Of a stretch of 38,980 nucleotides of DNA, positions 24,564 through 33,193 are shown piece by piece. Position 1 is the first letter of the stretch, and each line of letters starts with the position of its first letter. The notes beneath the pieces are model-generated. The model was not told the origin of the DNA, did no database searches, and worked only from the letters and a program-made list of their open reading frames with translations. A program made the position numbers and the translations under genes. Source of the DNA: Corynebacterium sp. (lineage in GTDB: Bacteria > Actinomycetota > Actinomycetes > Mycobacteriales > Mycobacteriaceae); contig NZ_DUOE01000109.1 of assembly GCF_012838985.1 (NCBI RefSeq), positions 1 to 38,980 on the forward strand, in the 5' to 3' direction.

Positions 24564-26204
24564 TCAGTTCTCCTCCGGAATCATGGAGATCGCGCCGCAC
24601 GGGCACTCCTCCGCGCAGATACCGCAGCCCTTGCAGTAGTCGTACTTGAACTCGTACTCGCCGGCCGCCAGCTTGGTCACCGCATTGTCCGGGCAGACGC
24701 CGAAGCAGTTGTCGCAGCCGAAGCAGTTGCCGCACGACATGCAGCGGCGGGCCTCGAGGAGGGCGGAGTCGGCGTCGAGGCCCTGCACGACCTCGTCGAA
24801 GGTGGAGGCACGACGTGCCCCTTCGAGGCGTTCGCGCACCTGGTGCGGGGCCTCGGAGTAGTACCAGGTCTCCATACGGTCGAGAGTCGCGTCTGCAGGC
24901 TTGACTGCTGGCACATAGGGCTGGCCGCGCAGCCAACCGTCGATGTAGCGGGCCGCCTTCTTGCCGTGGCCGATGGCGACGGTGACGTTCTTCTCGCTCG
25001 GCACCATGTCACCGCCGGCGAAGACCCCCGCACGCCCGGTCATCATCTGTCCGTCGACGGCGACCACACCGCGGGAGATCTCCACGCCCTCGACGCCCTC
25101 CAGCAGGGAGAGATCCGACTCCTGGCCCAGCGCCATGACGAGGGAGTCGGCGGCGAGGTCCTCGTACTCGCCGGTCGGGGTGAGGTTGCCCTCGGCGTCG
25201 ATGGCCATCTTCTCGATCCTGACCGAGCCCTCGTCGACGTGGTTGACGGTGGACAGCCAGCGCATGGTGATGCCCTCCTCCTCGGCCTCCATGACCTCGG
25301 AGTCGTGGGCGGTCATGCGGTCGCGGGTGCGGCGGTAGAGGATGACCGACTCGGTGGCCCCCAGTCGGCGGGCCGTGCGTGCCGCGTCGACCGCGGTGTT
25401 GCCGCCGCCGTAGACCACCACGCGGCGCCCCAGCAGCGGGGCCTCCCCGTCCTCGGTGTCGCGCAGCAGGTCGACGGCGTTCATGATGGTCGCCGCCGAA
25501 CCTGCGGGCACCTCCACGTTGCGTGCCAGCTGGGCGCCGACAGCGGTGAAGACGGCGTCGAAAAGCTCCAGTTCGGCGTCGACGTCGGTGACGGTGACGC
25601 CCTGCTCGAAGGTGACACCCAGGGCCGCGATGCGGGCGATCTCGGCGTCGAGGATGTGGCGGGGCAGGCGGTAGGAGGGGATGCCGTAGCGCATCATGCC
25701 GCCGGGCCGGGCACCCTGGTCACGGACCGTGACCTCGTGGCCGAGGCGGGCCAGGTGGTACGCCGCGGACAGGCCGGAGGGCCCGGAACCGACGACGAGG
25801 ACCTTCCTGCCTGAGGGATCCTTGACGGGTGCGACCTGCCAGCCCTCCTTGATGGCGCGGTCACCGAGGAAACGCTCGATGGCGTTGATGCCGACGGCTT
25901 CGTCGACCTCCGCACGGTTACAGGCGGTCTGGCACGTGTGGTAGCAGACGCGGCCCATGACGGCGGGCAGGGGATTATCCACCATGATCTCGCGCCAGGC
26001 AGCCTCGTAGTCGCCCTCCTCGGCGTGGTACAGCCAGCCCTGGATGTTCTCCCCCGCGGGGCAGGCCTTGTTGCAGGGCGGCAGCAGATCGACGTAGACG
26101 GGCCGCTCGCTGCGCCAGGAGCCGGTCTTGTTCGCCAGGGAGGAACCGGTCTGCAGGGTGATGGCGAAGGGCATGCCGATGTTGACGTTCCTGTCGGGGC
26201 TCAC
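24564..26204 (-). CDS. GltD-like FAD/NAD(P) oxidoreductase with C-terminal 2x[4Fe-4S] ferredoxin domain
   Basis: N-terminal CNKACPAGENIQGWL / CYHTCQTACNR; FAD GSGPSGLSAAYHLA; NAD(P) GGGNTAVDAARTARRLGA; C-terminal CMSCGNCFGCDNCFGVCP...CKGCGICAEECPCGAI. Confidence 0.93.
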   Translation of the reverse strand: MSPDRNVNIGMPFAITLQTGSSLANKTGSWRSERPVYVDLLPPCNKACPAGENIQGWLYHAEEGDYEAAWREIMVDNPLPAVMGRVCYHTCQTACNRAEVDEAVGINAIERFLGDRAIKEGWQVAPVKDPSGRKVLVVGSGPSGLSAAYHLARLGHEVTVRDQGARPGGMMRYGIPSYRLPRHILDAEIARIAALGVTFEQGVTVTDVDAELELFDAVFTAVGAQLARNVEVPAGSAATIMNAVDLLRDTEDGEAPLLGRRVVVYGGGNTAVDAARTARRLGATESVILYRRTRDRMTAHDSEVMEAEEEGITMRWLSTVNHVDEGSVRIEKMAIDAEGNLTPTGEYEDLAADSLVMALGQESDLSLLEGVEGVEISRGVVAVDGQMMTGRAGVFAGGDMVPSEKNVTVAIGHGKKAARYIDGWLRGQPYVPAVKPADATLDRMETWYYSEAPHQVRERLEGARRASTFDEVVQGLDADSALLEARRCMSCGNCFGCDNCFGVCPDNAVTKLAAGEYEFKYDYCKGCGICAEECPCGAISMIPEEN

Positions 26205-27298
26205 TGTGCGTCGTCTCCTTCGTACTTGACGAACTCGTCGAGGGTCTCCTCGTCGATGAGGTTGTAGCGGCGGATGTTGCGGTCCGCCAGCGCCTGGATG
26301 CGTCCGATGACGGCGGGGTCCGCGTCCTTCCGGAACAGGTGCGCGTAACGGCGCTGCAGCCGGAGGTAGTCCTCGACCGGGGCGGGGCGGCGGATCTTCT
26401 TCACCGAGGTGACCTCGCCGTACTCCGCCTCGTAGACGGGGAACAGGCCGGTCTGGGTGGCCAGGCGGGCCAGCTTGATGGTGTCCTTCGACGCCGAACC
26501 CCAGCCCAGCGGGCAGGGCACGAACACGTGCAGGTAGCGGGCACCGCGGAACTCCATCGCGCGGGTCACCTTGTACTCGAGGTCGTGGAGGTCCGCGACG
26601 GTGGCGGTGGCCACGTAGGGGATCTCGTGCGCCATCGCGATGCGCGGCAGGTCCTTGCCCTGACCGAAGACGTTGCCCGGCTCCGGGCCGACCGGCTGGG
26701 TCGTGGCCGTCCGGGCTGCCGGCGGCGTCGCACCGGAACGCTGCACGCCGGTGTTCATGTACGCCTCGTTGTCGTAGCAGATGTAGAGGACGTCGTCGTT
26801 GCGCTCGAACATGCCCGACAGGGGACCGAAACCGATGTCGACGGTGCCGCCGTCACCGCCCTGGGCGACGACGCGGACGTCGGTACGCCCCTTCGCCTTC
26901 ATCGCGGCCGCGACACCGGTGGCCACGGCCGGGGCGTTACCGAACAGGGAGTGGATCCACGGCAGATTCCACGAGGTCTCCGGGTACGGGGTGGAGAACA
27001 CCTCGAGGCAGCCGGTGGCGTTGCAGGCGATGAGCTGGCCGTCCGTCGCGGCGACGGCGGCATCGAGGGCGTAGCGGGCTCCGAGCGCCTCACCGCAGCC
27101 CTGGCAGGCGCGGTGGCCGGAGGTCAGCGAGTTGAAGCGGTCGGGCCCCGACTGGATCGACAGCAGCTTGTCCTCGATGAGGCGGTTGCCGATGGCGAAG
27201 GAACCCACCTGGTAGAACTTCGTCTCCTCCGCCCCGGGGATCTCGGTGGCGGGGAAGCTCGGCGTGGGCAGTGCGGTGGTGTAGCGGAAATCAGACAT
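26201..27298 (-). CDS. porB: 2-oxoacid:acceptor (pyruvate:ferredoxin) oxidoreductase beta subunit, TPP-binding
   Basis: ACQGCGEALGARY, CNATGCLEVFSTPYPETSW, GGDGGTVDIGFGPLSGMFERNDDVLYICYDNEAYMNTGVQRS. Confidence 0.93.
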   Translation of the reverse strand: MSDFRYTTALPTPSFPATEIPGAEETKFYQVGSFAIGNRLIEDKLLSIQSGPDRFNSLTSGHRACQGCGEALGARYALDAAVAATDGQLIACNATGCLEVFSTPYPETSWNLPWIHSLFGNAPAVATGVAAAMKAKGRTDVRVVAQGGDGGTVDIGFGPLSGMFERNDDVLYICYDNEAYMNTGVQRSGATPPAARTATTQPVGPEPGNVFGQGKDLPRIAMAHEIPYVATATVADLHDLEYKVTRAMEFRGARYLHVFVPCPLGWGSASKDTIKLARLATQTGLFPVYEAEYGEVTSVKKIRRPAPVEDYLRLQRRYAHLFRKDADPAVIGRIQALADRNIRRYNLIDEETLDEFVKYEGDDAQ

Positions 27299-27300
27299 GT

Positions 27301-28545
27301 CTAGTTCTCCCTGGCTGCCAGATCGCGCAGCATGTTCTCCGGGATGGCACCGGAGCGGCGGTGGGTGTTCTCGCGGGCGAGTTCGGCGTCGACAAGCTCC
27401 CTGTCGAGGTCGAGGAACGTGGTGTCCTCCACCTCATCGACGACCGCCTTGTCCAGGTAGGAGTGCAGCGACGCCTTCGTGATGTCGCGTCCGCCGAGAC
27501 CGGCGATGAGCTCGTGGCAGATGAAGCGCTTTCCGCGCATGGCGGCGCGGCAGTGGGAGGAGACGATGCCGCCGATGCCGACGGAGAAGGCCTTCTCCAG
27601 GACGATGAAACGGGTGCACCTGCTCAGCGCCTCGCGCACGGCTGCGGTGGGGAAGGGGCGGAAGGACACGAGCGAGAGGACGCCGATCTTCTCGCCTGCT
27701 TCCCGACGCTCGTCGACGACGTCACGCAACGTGCCCGTCACGGACCCCAGGCACACGATGATCGTCTCCGCGTCCTCCGTGCGGTATTCGTGCATGAGAC
27801 CGCCGGAGGTGCGGCCGAAGATCCCGGCGAACTCGGCGCTCACCCGCGGGATGACGTCGAGGGCCTGCAGCTGCTTGTGGTGGGCGAGGTAGCGGACCTC
27901 GGTGAACGCCTCCGGACCGACCATCGCGCCGATGGAGATCGGGGCGGCCGGGTCGAGGACCTGCCGCGGCTCATAGGGAGGCAGGAACTTGTCGACGTCC
28001 TCCACCTCCGGCACATCCACCTGCTCCATGGCGTGCGTGAGGATGAAACCGTCCATGCACACCATGACCGGCAGGGAGAGCTCCTCGGCGATCTTGAACG
28101 CCTGCACGTGCAGGTCCGCGGCCTCCTGGTTGTCGGTGGCGTAGAGCTGCAGCCAGCCGGAGTCACGCTGCGACATGGAGTCGGTCTGGTCGTTCCAGAT
28201 GTTGATCGGCGAGCCGATGGCGCGGTTGGCCACCGTCATGACGATCGGCAGACCCAGGCCGGAGGCGTTGTACACGGCCTCCACCATGAACAGCAGACCC
28301 TGGGAGGCGGTGGCTGTGTAGGACCGGGCACCGGCGGCCGACGCGCCGATGGAGGCGGACATCGCGGAGAACTCACTCTCCACGTTGACGTACTCGCAGG
28401 AACCCAGCTCGCCCTTCTTGGCCATGGCACTCAGGGCCTCGACGATGTGGGTCTGCGGGGAGATCGGGTAGGCGCAGATCACCTCCGGACGGCAGGCCGC
28501 CACGGCCTGCGCCACCGCCTGGGAACCCTCGATCTGCTTAAGCAT
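27301..28545 (-). CDS. porA: 2-oxoacid:acceptor (pyruvate:ferredoxin) oxidoreductase alpha subunit
   Basis: GSQAVAQAVAACRPEVICAYPISPQTHIVE, VESEFSAMSASIGASAAGARSYTATASQGLLFM. Confidence 0.93.
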   Translation of the reverse strand: MLKQIEGSQAVAQAVAACRPEVICAYPISPQTHIVEALSAMAKKGELGSCEYVNVESEFSAMSASIGASAAGARSYTATASQGLLFMVEAVYNASGLGLPIVMTVANRAIGSPINIWNDQTDSMSQRDSGWLQLYATDNQEAADLHVQAFKIAEELSLPVMVCMDGFILTHAMEQVDVPEVEDVDKFLPPYEPRQVLDPAAPISIGAMVGPEAFTEVRYLAHHKQLQALDVIPRVSAEFAGIFGRTSGGLMHEYRTEDAETIIVCLGSVTGTLRDVVDERREAGEKIGVLSLVSFRPFPTAAVREALSRCTRFIVLEKAFSVGIGGIVSSHCRAAMRGKRFICHELIAGLGGRDITKASLHSYLDKAVVDEVEDTTFLDLDRELVDAELARENTHRRSGAIPENMLRDLAAREN

Positions 28546-29119
28546 TGGCTGCCTCCTCCTGCTTGGACATGACCAGGTCGTACGCGGCCTGCGCGGCGGC
28601 GACGTTCATCTCCCCGACCCGGCCGGGGAAACGGTTCATGATGGCGTGGGACACCGACTCCATCCGGTACAGACCGGTGAGCGCGGCGACGCCACCGAGC
28701 AGCACCGCGTTCGGCACGGTACGGCCGGTGTGTTCGCGGGCGATGTCGGTGGCGGGGATCGTCATGAAGTGGCCGGCGGGTTGGCGGGCCTGCAGTTCGC
28801 TGAGCCCCAGTTCCGCGCTGCGCTTCGACGAGTTGATGAGCACGTAGCCGTCCTCGGTGAGCCCCGAGAAGACATTGAGGATGGGGAGCAGCGTGCGGTC
28901 CTGCACCACGACGAGGTCAGGATTGAGCACCGGCTCCCGGGTACGGATCGGGGTGTCGCTGATCCGGCAGTACGCCACGACGGGCGCTCCGGTGCGTTCC
29001 GAACCGAAGGAGGGGAACGCCTGCGCGTGACGTCCCTCCTCGAAGGCTGCCATGGCTATGAGGTCGGACGCGGTGACCACGCCCTGTCCGCCCCGACCGT
29101 GAATACGTACTTCGACCAT
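28538..29119 (-). CDS. 2-oxoacid:acceptor oxidoreductase gamma subunit
   Basis: MVEVRIHGRGGQGVVTASDLIAMAAFEEGRHAQAFPSFGSERTGAPV; overlaps porA start. Confidence 0.92.
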   Translation of the reverse strand: MVEVRIHGRGGQGVVTASDLIAMAAFEEGRHAQAFPSFGSERTGAPVVAYCRISDTPIRTREPVLNPDLVVVQDRTLLPILNVFSGLTEDGYVLINSSKRSAELGLSELQARQPAGHFMTIPATDIAREHTGRTVPNAVLLGGVAALTGLYRMESVSHAIMNRFPGRVGEMNVAAAQAAYDLVMSKQEEAANA

Positions 29120-29181
29120 GCCCTCCACTCTAAGAGCACGGACCCCTGAATGTGCGGTAACTGGAGGAGGGCAGGATCTCC

Positions 29182-30411
29182 CTAGAGCAGGACGGTCAGC
29201 AGGATGAGGGTGGCCGGCAGCGCCACGAAGACACCGAGGACCCAGACGGCCACGTACATCTTCCTCTCCGCTCCCAGGCGGGCCAGCAGCTCGGCGCCGT
29301 GGACGGGCAGCTCCCGCAGGAACGGCACACCGTAGATGAGGATCGTGGCGAAGGTGTTGAACAGCAGGTGCACCAGGGCCGCCTGCAGGGCCAGCTGGCC
29401 GTCCATGCCGGTGAAGGCGAAGGCGGCGATGAGGGCCGTGATGGTGGTACCGATGTTGGCGCCCAGCGTGAAGGGGTAGATCTGGCGGGTGGTGAACGTG
29501 CCGGAGCCGGCCAGCGGCACCATCAGGGAGGTGGTGGTGGAGGAGGACTGCACCATGACCGTCACCAGTGCGCCGGAGGCGATGCCGGACAGCGGGCCAC
29601 GGCCGATGGCGGCGTGGAGGATCTTCCGCGCGCGGCCGACCATGACGACCTTGAGCAGCTTGCCGATGAGGTTGATCACGCCGAGGATGAGAGCGATGCC
29701 GATGGCGATGAGCAGGATGCCGCCCCACGGGTGGTCGATGGCCTTGCCGATGAGGCCGATGGTGCCGGCCAGGGGATCGGTGACGGCGGTGACCGCGTTG
29801 CCCAGTCCACCGAAGATGAACGTCAGTGCGCCACCGTCGGAGCCGGCGAACTGCTCAGCCAGGAAGCTGGAGGTGCGCTCCAGCAGGCCGAACATGATCT
29901 CCAGGGGCAGGAAGATGACCACGGCCAGCAGGTTGAAGAAGTCGTGCACCGAGGCCGCGGAGAAGGCCCGCCGGAACGAGGCCTTGTCGCGCATCATGCC
30001 CAGGGAGACGAGCGTGCTGGTCAGTGTGGTGCCGATGTTGGCGCCTAGCAGCATGGGGATCGCCGTGGCCATGGGCAGACCACCGGCGACGAGTCCGACG
30101 GTGATGGAGGTGGTCGTCGAGGAGGACTGGATGAGTGCCGTCGCGAGCAGACCGATCATCAGGGCGATGAGCGGGTTGGAGGCGAAGGCGAAGAGCTCCT
30201 CGGCGCGGCCGCTCGTGGCGAGCTTGAAGCCGTCACCGATGACGCTGACCGCGGTGATGAGCAGGTAGATACCGACGGCGACGGTGATCCAGTTGGCGAT
30301 CGCCAGCGGCTTCCCGCGGAGACCGAGTCGTGCGAGGGGACTCGGTCGCTCCGCCGGGATGTCGGGGGTGGTGTCCATCGGCGGAAGGACCGGAGGTGTC
30401 GTGGTGGACAT
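29182..30411 (-). CDS. Na/Pi cotransporter (PF02690), copy 1
   Basis: Duplicated QSSSTTTSITVGLVAGG / QSSSTTTSLMVPLAGSG and GANIGTTLTS / GANIGTTITAL motifs; no C-terminal PhoU domain; ATG at 30411. Confidence 0.92.
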   Translation of the reverse strand: MSTTTPPVLPPMDTTPDIPAERPSPLARLGLRGKPLAIANWITVAVGIYLLITAVSVIGDGFKLATSGRAEELFAFASNPLIALMIGLLATALIQSSSTTTSITVGLVAGGLPMATAIPMLLGANIGTTLTSTLVSLGMMRDKASFRRAFSAASVHDFFNLLAVVIFLPLEIMFGLLERTSSFLAEQFAGSDGGALTFIFGGLGNAVTAVTDPLAGTIGLIGKAIDHPWGGILLIAIGIALILGVINLIGKLLKVVMVGRARKILHAAIGRGPLSGIASGALVTVMVQSSSTTTSLMVPLAGSGTFTTRQIYPFTLGANIGTTITALIAAFAFTGMDGQLALQAALVHLLFNTFATILIYGVPFLRELPVHGAELLARLGAERKMYVAVWVLGVFVALPATLILLTVLL

Positions 30412-30500
30412 GCAGGGTTCTCCTGAAGTCTGAAGCGCGGGCACCGTGTGCCCCAGGGGACGGCCCTAACTTAGGAAGTCAACATGACCACTTCGGTACC

Positions 30501-30522
30501 GTTCGGTTAACGGACGGTGAAT
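30501..30522 (-). promoter_or_regulatory. Candidate PHO-box-like 11-nt direct repeats upstream of Na/Pi copy 1
   Basis: Minus strand ATTCACC-GTCC / GTTAACC-GAAC, two 11-nt units resembling GTTCACC-N4. Confidence 0.35.
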
Positions 30523-30548
30523 TGAATGGGAATCGTGGGGCAATTCAC
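30517..30548. repeat. Inverted repeat GTGAATTG-N16-CAATTCAC
   Basis: Perfect 8-bp arms between the PstS-like gene and Na/Pi copy 1. Confidence 0.5.
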
Positions 30549-30601
30549 AAAGAACTCCCCCTGAAAACGCCCTCCTCGAGTTGCAGCGCACCGGGAACCT
30601 G

Positions 30602-31531
30602 TTAGAAGAGGCCCTCGATGCCCTCCGCCGGCCCCGTCACACGGTTGTCCAGTCGTTCCCGTGCCGCCGCGTAAGCCTCATCCGGGAGCCGGTAGTAGTA
30701 CACCAACGGCAGTTCATCGTGGACCTTGTCCAGATACGTCCCGATGAACTCCCGGACATCCTCCCGCTCCTCCAGCGCCGCGACGGACACGTAGAGGAAC
30801 AGCGGCCGGGTGAGGGCCCGGTAGGTCCCGTCCTGCACGCCGGCGAGCGTCGGCTGCACGCCGTCGACGGACACGGTGGCCATGACGTTGCGGTGCCCCT
30901 CGTCGGAGGCCAGGTAGTTGCCCACACCCATGAAGCCGAGCGCGTTCCGGTCCGCGGCGATCCAGCGGGTGAGTTCCTCGATGTCATCGGTGGTGCGGTA
31001 GTCCTCGCGCAGGGAACCCGCCTGGCCGGTCACCGCCTCACTGAAGTAGTCGAAGGTGCCCGAGCCGGCCCCACGGCCGACGAGCACGATCTCCTCCTCC
31101 GGCCATTCGGGGCGGATGTCGGCCCAGGTGCTGATCTCCGAGCCCGGGGACCAGATCTTCCGCAGCTCCTCCATGGTGAGGTCGCGGACGGTCCCGTTGG
31201 CGGAGTTGCGGACCACGCTCAGAGAATCCACGGCGACGGGCAGTTCGATGAACTCCACGTCGTTCTCCGCGCACAGCTCCTGCTGCTCCCGGGGAATGGG
31301 GACCGAGGCGTTGTTGATCTGCGATTCACCCCGGCAGAACCGCCCGAAACCGTCGAGCGTGCCCTCGCTGGTCTGCTCGATGGCCGTGCGTGTCTTGAGG
31401 GCCATGTGGGCGGTGACCGGGGCGACGGTGGCGGAACCGGTCACCCGGATCGGGTCGTCGCCCACCGGGGTGCAGCCTGCGAGGAGCAGCCCGCACGCGG
31501 TCGTGAGCATCGCCAGTCGACGCAGCGTCAT
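30602..31531 (-). CDS. PstS-like phosphate-binding lipoprotein
   Basis: LLLAGC lipobox; IRVTGSATVAPVT, ESQINNASVPI, GRGAGSGTFDYFSEAVTG phosphate-binding protein motifs. Confidence 0.88.
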   Translation of the reverse strand: MTLRRLAMLTTACGLLLAGCTPVGDDPIRVTGSATVAPVTAHMALKTRTAIEQTSEGTLDGFGRFCRGESQINNASVPIPREQQELCAENDVEFIELPVAVDSLSVVRNSANGTVRDLTMEELRKIWSPGSEISTWADIRPEWPEEEIVLVGRGAGSGTFDYFSEAVTGQAGSLREDYRTTDDIEELTRWIAADRNALGFMGVGNYLASDEGHRNVMATVSVDGVQPTLAGVQDGTYRALTRPLFLYVSVAALEEREDVREFIGTYLDKVHDELPLVYYYRLPDEAYAAARERLDNRVTGPAEGIEGLF

Positions 31532-31749
31532 GCCTGCTCATCCTCCCCGCGACCGCGCAGGTCGCTCATGAGCGCGTCAATGAATACGCGGATGTTGTTC
31601 CAGCGGTGGCTGGTGGCGGCGAAGAGCTCCGGGAGCCGCTCGATCTCCTCCCGTTGACGCTGTTCCTGCAGCTCCTGCAGGCGGCGTTCGGTGTCGGCGA
31701 GGATCTCCTCGAGCTGCTCCTCCAGGGTGAGCCGGGGATCGTTGTTCAT
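31528..31749 (-). CDS. Small coiled-coil protein, 73 aa
   Basis: MNNDPRLTLEEQLEEILADTERRLQELQEQRQREEIERLPELF...; ATGA overlap with the PstS-like gene, 10 nt after Na/Pi copy 2. Confidence 0.75.
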   Translation of the reverse strand: MNNDPRLTLEEQLEEILADTERRLQELQEQRQREEIERLPELFAATSHRWNNIRVFIDALMSDLRGRGEDEQA

Positions 31750-31759
31750 GGTGGGCTCC

Positions 31760-32977
31760 TTAGAGGACGACGGTGAGGAAGATGAGCAGGGCGGGCAGGG
31801 CCAGGAACACGCCCAGCACCCAGCCGACGATGTAGAGCTTGTTGTCCGCTCCCAGGCGGGCCAGGGTGGTGGCCCCCAGGACGGGGATGTTGCGCAGGAA
31901 AGGCAGCCCGTAGATGAGGAGCGTGGCGAAGAGGTTGAACAGCAGGTGCACCAGGGCCGCCTGCAGGGCCAGCTCCGCCTCCACGCCGGTGAAGGCGAAG
32001 GCGGCGATGAGCGCGGTGATGGTGGTGCCGATGTTCGCACCGAGGGTGAAGGGGTAGACCTGGCGCAGCGAGAAGGTGCCTGATCCGGCCAGCGGCACCA
32101 TGAGGGACGTCGTGGTGGAGGAGGACTGCACCATCACCGTGATGAGGGTGCCGGAGAGGATGCCCGACAGGGGGCCCCGGCCGATGGCGTTGTGCAGGAC
32201 CTGCTTCGCCTTACCCACCATGACCACCTTGAGCAGCACACCGATGAAGTTGATCACGGCGAGGATGAGGCCGATTCCGATGGCGATGAGCGCGATGCCG
32301 CCCCAGGGGGCCGGGAGGACGCCGCCGAGGAGCCCGATGAGATCGGCCAGGGGGTCGGTGACGGTGGTGACCGCCGTGCCGATGCCGGCGAAGACGGTCG
32401 CGAACAGACCGCCGTCAGAGCCCGCCAGCTGATCGGAGAAGAAGCCGGACACCCGGTCGAGGACCCCGAACATCATCTCCAGCGGCAGGAAGATGACCAC
32501 GGCCAGCAGGTTGAAGAAGTCATGCACCGACGCGGCGGCGAAGGCCCGGCGGAAATCCTCCTTCTGCCGGACCATGCCGAGGGACACCAGCGTGGACGTC
32601 AGCGTCGTGCCGATGTTGGCGCCCATGAGCATGGGGATCGCCGTGGCCATGGGCAGACCGCCGGCCACGAGTCCCACGGTGATGGAGGTGACCGTCGAGG
32701 AGGACTGGATGAGCGCTGTGGCGAGCACGCCGATCATCAGCGCGATGAGGGGGTTGGAGGCGAAGGCGAAGAGCTCCTCCGCCTGTCCCCGGGTGGCCAG
32801 CTTGAAGCCGTCACCGATGACGCTGACGGCGGTGATGAGCAGGTAGATGCCGACGGCGACGGCGACCCAGTTCGCTGCGTCGAGAGCCCGGCCTCCGAGG
32901 CCGAACCGTTCCAGGGGACTGCGCGCCGGTTCCGGACGGGACTCGACAGCGACATCCGCCATGGTGGGCGTGGACAT
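31760..32977 (-). CDS. Na/Pi cotransporter (PF02690), copy 2
   Basis: Near-identical in long blocks to 29182..30411 product; same QSSS and GANIGTT motifs; ATG at 32977. Confidence 0.92.
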   Translation of the reverse strand: MSTPTMADVAVESRPEPARSPLERFGLGGRALDAANWVAVAVGIYLLITAVSVIGDGFKLATRGQAEELFAFASNPLIALMIGVLATALIQSSSTVTSITVGLVAGGLPMATAIPMLMGANIGTTLTSTLVSLGMVRQKEDFRRAFAAASVHDFFNLLAVVIFLPLEMMFGVLDRVSGFFSDQLAGSDGGLFATVFAGIGTAVTTVTDPLADLIGLLGGVLPAPWGGIALIAIGIGLILAVINFIGVLLKVVMVGKAKQVLHNAIGRGPLSGILSGTLITVMVQSSSTTTSLMVPLAGSGTFSLRQVYPFTLGANIGTTITALIAAFAFTGVEAELALQAALVHLLFNLFATLLIYGLPFLRNIPVLGATTLARLGADNKLYIVGWVLGVFLALPALLIFLTVVL

Positions 32978-33066: not shown

Positions 33067-33107
33067 CTTTGCCCCCTGGTGAACCGGTGGTTGACCAGGG
33101 GGCAAAG
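33067..33107 (-). terminator. Strong hairpin downstream of tRNA (14-bp perfect stem)
   Basis: CTTTGCCCCCTGGT-N13-ACCAGGGGGCAAAG beginning 12 nt past the tRNA 3' end; no long U-tract. Confidence 0.65.
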
Positions 33108-33119
33108 TTGCGTGAACAG

Positions 33120-33193
33120 TGCCCCCGGTGGGACTCGAACCCACACTGTGCGGGTTTTGAATCCGCTGCCTCTGCCAATTGGGCTACGAGGGC
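33120..33193 (-). tRNA. tRNA with CAA anticodon (tRNA-Leu by anticodon) but class I fold with 5-nt variable loop
   Basis: GCCCTCG/CGGGGGC acceptor, A73, loop TTCAAAA, variable ACAGT, T-arm GTGGG-TTCGAGT-CCCAC; CCA not encoded. Confidence 0.9.

Follow-up and report, generated by a model that had tools for sequence, protein, structure and literature searches.

Why does a gene for a PstS-like phosphate-binding lipoprotein lie among sodium/phosphate (Na/Pi) symporter genes, with no Pst permease genes in the same cassette? The question arises at positions 29182 to 32977 of a 38,980-nucleotide (nt) stretch of Corynebacterium sp. DNA (contig NZ_DUOE01000109.1 of assembly GCF_012838985.1; hereafter the window). 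SLC34-type symporters are not known to depend on a binding protein, and PstS proteins are not known to serve any permeases other than those of the ATP-binding cassette (ABC) type. The core of the locus is a three-gene cassette that we judge reasonably likely to be a phosphate-starvation uptake operon, in which an SLC34/NptA symporter without a PhoU domain is paired with a dedicated small acidic helical protein and to which a PstS-type third gene has been added in many lineages.

Conservation of the three-gene order

Among 242 sampled Corynebacterium genomes, 38 encode the PstS-like protein, and in all 38 loci the gene immediately upstream, in the same orientation, encodes a PF02690 symporter. 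A small open reading frame (ORF) of 73 to 151 amino acids (aa) occupies the space between the two in 37 of these loci and is absent only in genome G031. Because the three-gene order recurs in every carrier except the one without the small gene, the arrangement cannot be ascribed to chance. (Greedy ORF maps, unreliable for DNA of high GC content, served for anchor genes only.) The cassette occupies different chromosomal sites, adjoining polA in this clade and, in many others, a pair of ABC exporter genes, such that its internal order is constant and its surroundings vary. Gaps of mostly 8 to 24 nt are followed by overlaps of -8 or -4 nt, suggesting coupled translation. Judged by gene order, the symporter, the small protein and the PstS-like protein form a conserved operon, and this conserved phosphate-starvation unit is probably co-translated.

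Within the window, transcription on the minus strand runs from a Na/Pi symporter gene through a 73-aa gene and the PstS-like lipoprotein gene to a second Na/Pi symporter gene. This order had been proposed from the sequence alone (the sequence-only reading), and both coordinates and domain matches confirm it. The features are as follows.

31760 to 32977, minus strand: Na/Pi symporter, cassette copy, SLC34/NptA type without PhoU domain, 405 aa (PF02690, E = 8.6e-33)
31528 to 31749, minus strand: 73-aa acidic helical/coiled-coil protein, after a 10-nt gap from the cassette symporter
30602 to 31531, minus strand: PstS-like phosphate-binding lipoprotein, 309 aa (TIGR02136, E = 1.2e-55; 4jwo, E = 5.4e-44)
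29182 to 30411, minus strand: second copy of the Na/Pi symporter, 409 aa, a duplicate specific to this lineage and preceded by a promoter region of its own (77% identity to the first copy)
30504 to 30523, minus strand: PhoR-box-like tandem site AATTCACCGTCCGTTAACCG, 92 nt upstream of symporter copy 2 (motif score 13.4)
33078 to 33097 (approximate), strand not assigned: weak PhoR-box-like tandem GGTCAACCaccGGTTCACC upstream of the cassette (motif score 5.4)
33119 to 33193, minus strand: tRNA-Leu(CAA), upstream neighbor, given for context (ARAGORN)

The 10-nt gap contains AAGGAG, which resembles a ribosome-binding site; an ATGA overlap joins the 73-aa gene to the lipoprotein gene, and 190 nt separate the latter from the second symporter. 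Genes for PstC, PstA and PstB are absent from the cassette here, as the sequence-only reading held, and from the conserved unit in general. That reading also treated the four genes as a unit in which a symporter pair brackets the other two. The bracketing is present here but is local: among the 38 loci of the genus, the downstream symporter occurs only in this genome (G000), in its nearest relative (G076) and, in altered form, in G208. Conservation therefore extends to the three-gene order, and the four-gene order, intact only in G000 and G076, was rejected as a conserved unit. In the symporter tree, copy 2 falls beside the cassette copies of its own clade, and on these comparisons the second symporter is a local duplication.

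Properties of the encoded proteins

Both window symporters match PF02690 in two stretches each, at 113.7 and 119.2 bits against a gathering cut-off of 29.1, and both carry QSSST motifs in each half. The best relative of solved structure is SLC34A2a (9z60, E = 1.7e-50). Their sequences place them unambiguously in the PF02690/SLC34-type Na/Pi family, with Na-dependent Pi transport as the predicted activity. A domain profile scan found no PhoU domain in either copy, in agreement with the sequence-only reading, and the same holds for a third, divergent PF02690 symporter of this genome (407 aa; contig C82, G000:C82:5339-6562), which is accompanied by neither a small gene nor a PstS gene.

The PstS-like lipoprotein carries the lipobox LAGC and matches PF12849 above the cut-off (E = 1e-19); its TIGR02136 score of 188.8 bits is below the cut-off of 206.6, despite the low E value. 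Its AlphaFold2 model has a mean predicted local distance difference test score (pLDDT) of 88.8, and the leading Foldseek matches are PstS or phosphate-binding structures, several with bound phosphate, including the phosphate-binding protein 4jwo (E = 3.8e-27; template-modeling scores, 0.72/0.78). In the PstS family, the GS.T and R..(G)SGT loops bind Pi, and both motifs are retained in intact PstS-like members. The model thus matches a Pi-type binding protein, which is its predicted role.

The 73-aa protein scores above the cut-off in no Pfam or NCBIfam family. AlphaFold predicts a single helix spanning residues 9 to 72 (pLDDT, 79.5; predicted template-modeling score, 0.35), for which a structure search returned no PDB match, and a coiled-coil dimer is a plausible arrangement. 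An alignment of the small proteins retrieved only generic coiled coils and a weak similarity, below the cut-off, to the sll1863 family. All cassette small proteins of the genus are acidic and have a tryptophan among their 40 C-terminal residues; those of Pseudomonas differ at the aligned tryptophan position.

A profile search detected small-protein homologues in 62 of the 242 Corynebacterium genomes, and those examined were always encoded 3' of a PF02690 symporter. Even where there is no PstS-like gene, the small gene directly follows the symporter (25 of 25 such loci in the genus), so symporter and small protein form the core and PstS is an add-on. At two PstS-less loci, L163 (G237:C4:265081-268335) and L297, the pair is followed by a second small ORF that contains tryptophan and is similar to the C-terminal portion of the small proteins, possibly a tandem duplication of the small gene.

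The sequence-only reading had the small protein acting as a substitute for the absent PhoU domain. That part of the proposal is favored by its presence beside PhoU-less symporters in 25 genomes without the PstS-like gene, but no homology to PhoU emerged: Pfam and NCBIfam scans of 22 members gave no PhoU match, and the model is one long helix rather than the six-helix PhoU fold. As the constant companion of PhoU-less symporters, the small protein may be a cytoplasmic partner that replaces the PhoU domain.

Promoters and the response to phosphate starvation

In Corynebacterium glutamicum, the published PhoR site has 8-bp repeats in tandem, joined by a 3-bp linker (PMC3353115). We trained a 20-bp position weight matrix (PWM) on 20 canonical pstS promoters from cassette carriers and applied a threshold score of at least 8, with 250-bp windows from the same loci as controls. 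Sites were present in 78% of 37 cassette upstream regions versus 2% of control windows, and in 14 of 20 PstS-less symporter-small gene loci versus 2.7% of controls, counts in which related species are not independent. The test was also not fully blind, since the template for the training sites was written after both promoter sets had been viewed. This enrichment makes the operon a probable member of the phosphate-starvation response. In the window, the site before copy 2, AATTCACCGTCCGTTAACCG, has the best PWM score of all 38,980 bases on either strand. An artificial best C. glutamicum PhoR motif, when scored directly, gave only weak separation (59% versus 16% at a score of at least 11), and was set aside for the pstS-trained matrix.

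Upstream of the Pseudomonas cassettes, individual E. coli-type Pho boxes did not score above shuffled sequences. Most of these cassettes (L208 to L225) have a conserved GGTCA-containing block, often CGGTCATCAAGnnTTCAC, about 90 to 110 nt upstream of the symporter. This block is possibly a degenerate Pho box, of which single sites do not beat shuffles.

Occurrence outside the genus

A PstS-alignment scan of 85,000 genomes, of which the best 80 matches were considered, recovered the three-gene cassette in Nesterenkonia alkaliphila, Mobilicoccus, Microbacterium halotolerans and Pseudomonas mendocina. No symporter adjoins the PstS relative in 69 of these best 80; at two Lutibacter loci, symporter fragments lie at a distance of over 4 kb. 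The symporter-less relatives therefore look like ordinary PstS genes, suggesting that the link between this PstS type and the symporter is specific. Among 249 sampled Pseudomonadaceae, 25 encode a close homologue of the PstS-like protein; in 19 of the 25 a symporter gene, a 74- to 75-aa gene and the PstS gene follow in that order, and the other six, which are more distant, have PstS alone. One Pseudomonas pair lies beside actinobacterial symporters in the symporter tree, where several branches are weak or long.

Neighboring genes vary. In many relatives (e.g., L051, 306-3802), a heterodimeric ABC exporter pair (PF00664 and PF00005) adjoins the cassette on one side, and genes for a DUF1707 protein and an aminotransferase adjoin it on the opposite side. 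Just downstream of the cassette in the window (24564 to 29149, minus strand) is what by eye resembles a multi-subunit 2-oxoacid:ferredoxin oxidoreductase operon with a glutamate-synthase-like, flavin adenine dinucleotide-containing subunit.

How the cassette might work

Under Pi limitation, PhoR would activate the operon; the envelope-anchored PstS-like protein would capture scarce Pi and raise its level at the symporter or deliver it there; the symporter would import the captured Pi with Na+; and the small protein, on the cytoplasmic side, would stand in for the absent PhoU domain by controlling or stabilizing the symporter. The PstS-like protein likely works with the symporter, since evolution ties its gene to the symporter and not to permease genes. 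Direct hand-over of Pi from one to the other is the least certain step, and we regard it as possible but somewhat doubtful; by analogy, Pi may be passed on as in tripartite ATP-independent periplasmic (TRAP) and tripartite tricarboxylate (TTT) transporters, or the PstS-like protein may only buffer or sense Pi.

Several observations weigh against this interpretation. The cassette's own PhoR-box-like site in the window, GGTCAACCaccGGTTCACC, is weak (shuffle fraction, 0.07) and overlaps an inverted repeat, which could ambiguously be the terminator of the tRNA-Leu gene. Solo SLC34-type symporters occur in Aeromonas and Pseudoalteromonas with neither the small gene nor PstS. The PstS-like genes of G208 (L079), G036 (L078) and G154 (L080) look damaged, being split, internally deleted or truncated, and the symporter and small gene remain, indicating that PstS is dispensable in places. 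The lipobox is absent from most PstS proteins of the Pseudomonas cassettes, so membrane anchoring is not essential. Moreover, PstC is encoded by 37 of the 38 carriers in the genus, such that the lipoprotein could feed PstCAB instead, and co-transcription from a Pho promoter would also unite parts that act separately. In G208, a second symporter-small gene pair lies downstream of the damaged gene.

In an alternative that we consider rather unlikely, the trio is co-expressed during Pi starvation, but the lipoprotein is an extra PstS for PstCAB and the symporter works alone. The sharing of one motif between canonical pstS and cassette promoters, the retention of the PstS fold and the existence of symporter-small gene pairs without PstS would all be expected if so. 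It accounts less well for a PstS-like gene that is tied to the symporter in all 38 loci of the genus, in other actinobacterial families and in Pseudomonadaceae, at several chromosomal sites and with no pst permease genes seen beside it. Carriers, in addition, already have a canonical PstS: a separate pstS precedes pstC in each of the 20 carriers examined, which makes the cassette protein an additional PstS and no replacement. The scenario of a pstCAB operon that lacks its own pstS and borrows this lipoprotein was thus rejected for these 20 carriers.

Profile searches of this draft assembly found no PstC and no PstB above the cut-off, as would be the case if the lipoprotein substituted for a lost PstS in a Pst-less genome. 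We consider this highly improbable: the DNA on either side of pstSCAB in the nearest relative matches contig ends of this assembly, on C160 (to 6551 of 6572) and C216 (to 12068 of 12068), placing pstSCAB in an assembly gap, and relatives carry both cassette and pst operon. Loss of Pst from this genome was accordingly rejected. An improbable but less remote alternative has the PstS-like protein acting as a sensor, reporting external Pi to the symporter or gating it, and/or acting on Pho signaling via the small protein, with no hand-over. NptA PhoU domains regulate PhoPR signaling in Staphylococcus aureus, according to a 2026 Pi-transporter survey (PMC13170248), and at nearly every locus examined the PhoU-less symporter comes with the small protein; however, the cassette contains no kinase or signaling gene, and the small protein lacks detectable similarity to PhoU.

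Relation to known phosphate transporters

NptA-type transporters without a PhoU domain are described in that survey, namely, NptA.v of Vibrio cholerae and NptA-PhoU of Bacillus subtilis (PMC13170248). The cassette symporter resembles these in being a PF02690/SLC34-like protein of about 400 aa with no PhoU domain, but they are described there as stand-alone, whereas the cassette adds a small gene and PstS; the available text mentions neither a small partner nor a connection to PstS for them. The PhoU domain of S. aureus NptA controls Pho signaling (PMC13170248). There, as proposed for the cassette, a Na/Pi symporter is coupled to an accessory regulator, but the PhoU-like part is fused, unlike the separate helical protein of 73 to 151 aa. 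SCO1846, encoded beside pitA and annotated as a membrane protein (PMC13170248), is likewise a small protein unlike PhoU that its gene position links to a secondary Pi transporter, but the cassette protein is helical and acidic and accompanies an NptA/SLC34 symporter rather than PitA.

With the PstSCAB transporter, the cassette shares a PstS-type binding protein and a PhoR-box promoter, but it has a sodium symporter where PstC, PstA and PstB would be. In Pseudomonas, the Fig. 5A legend of Lidbury 2016 (PMC5082522) lists nptA near the uncharacterized Pi-binding proteins psp2/psp3. The available part of that text describes no small protein, cross-phylum operon or mechanism, whereas the cassette comprises the small gene and recurs in two phyla. 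We found no earlier description of the three-gene system in the open-licence literature.

If hand-over occurs, the cassette would resemble TRAP and TTT transporters in combining a binding protein with an ion-driven permease. Those systems take organic acids and use unrelated permease and binding-protein families, whereas the cassette is predicted to act on Pi, with dependence on the binding protein only proposed. A tentative proposal, which we hold to be less than an even prospect, is that the cassette joins TRAP and TTT as a third class of secondary transporter that depends on a binding protein, with a PstS-type protein feeding Pi to an SLC34-type sodium symporter and a new small helical protein standing in for PhoU. 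With a symporter-PstS operon in two phyla and a starvation-type promoter, the feeding of an SLC34 symporter by a binding protein becomes directly testable. Alongside PhoU, PitR and the PhoU domain of NptA, the small protein may represent a fourth kind of phosphate accessory protein linked to a transporter, one that would serve symporters without such a domain of their own.

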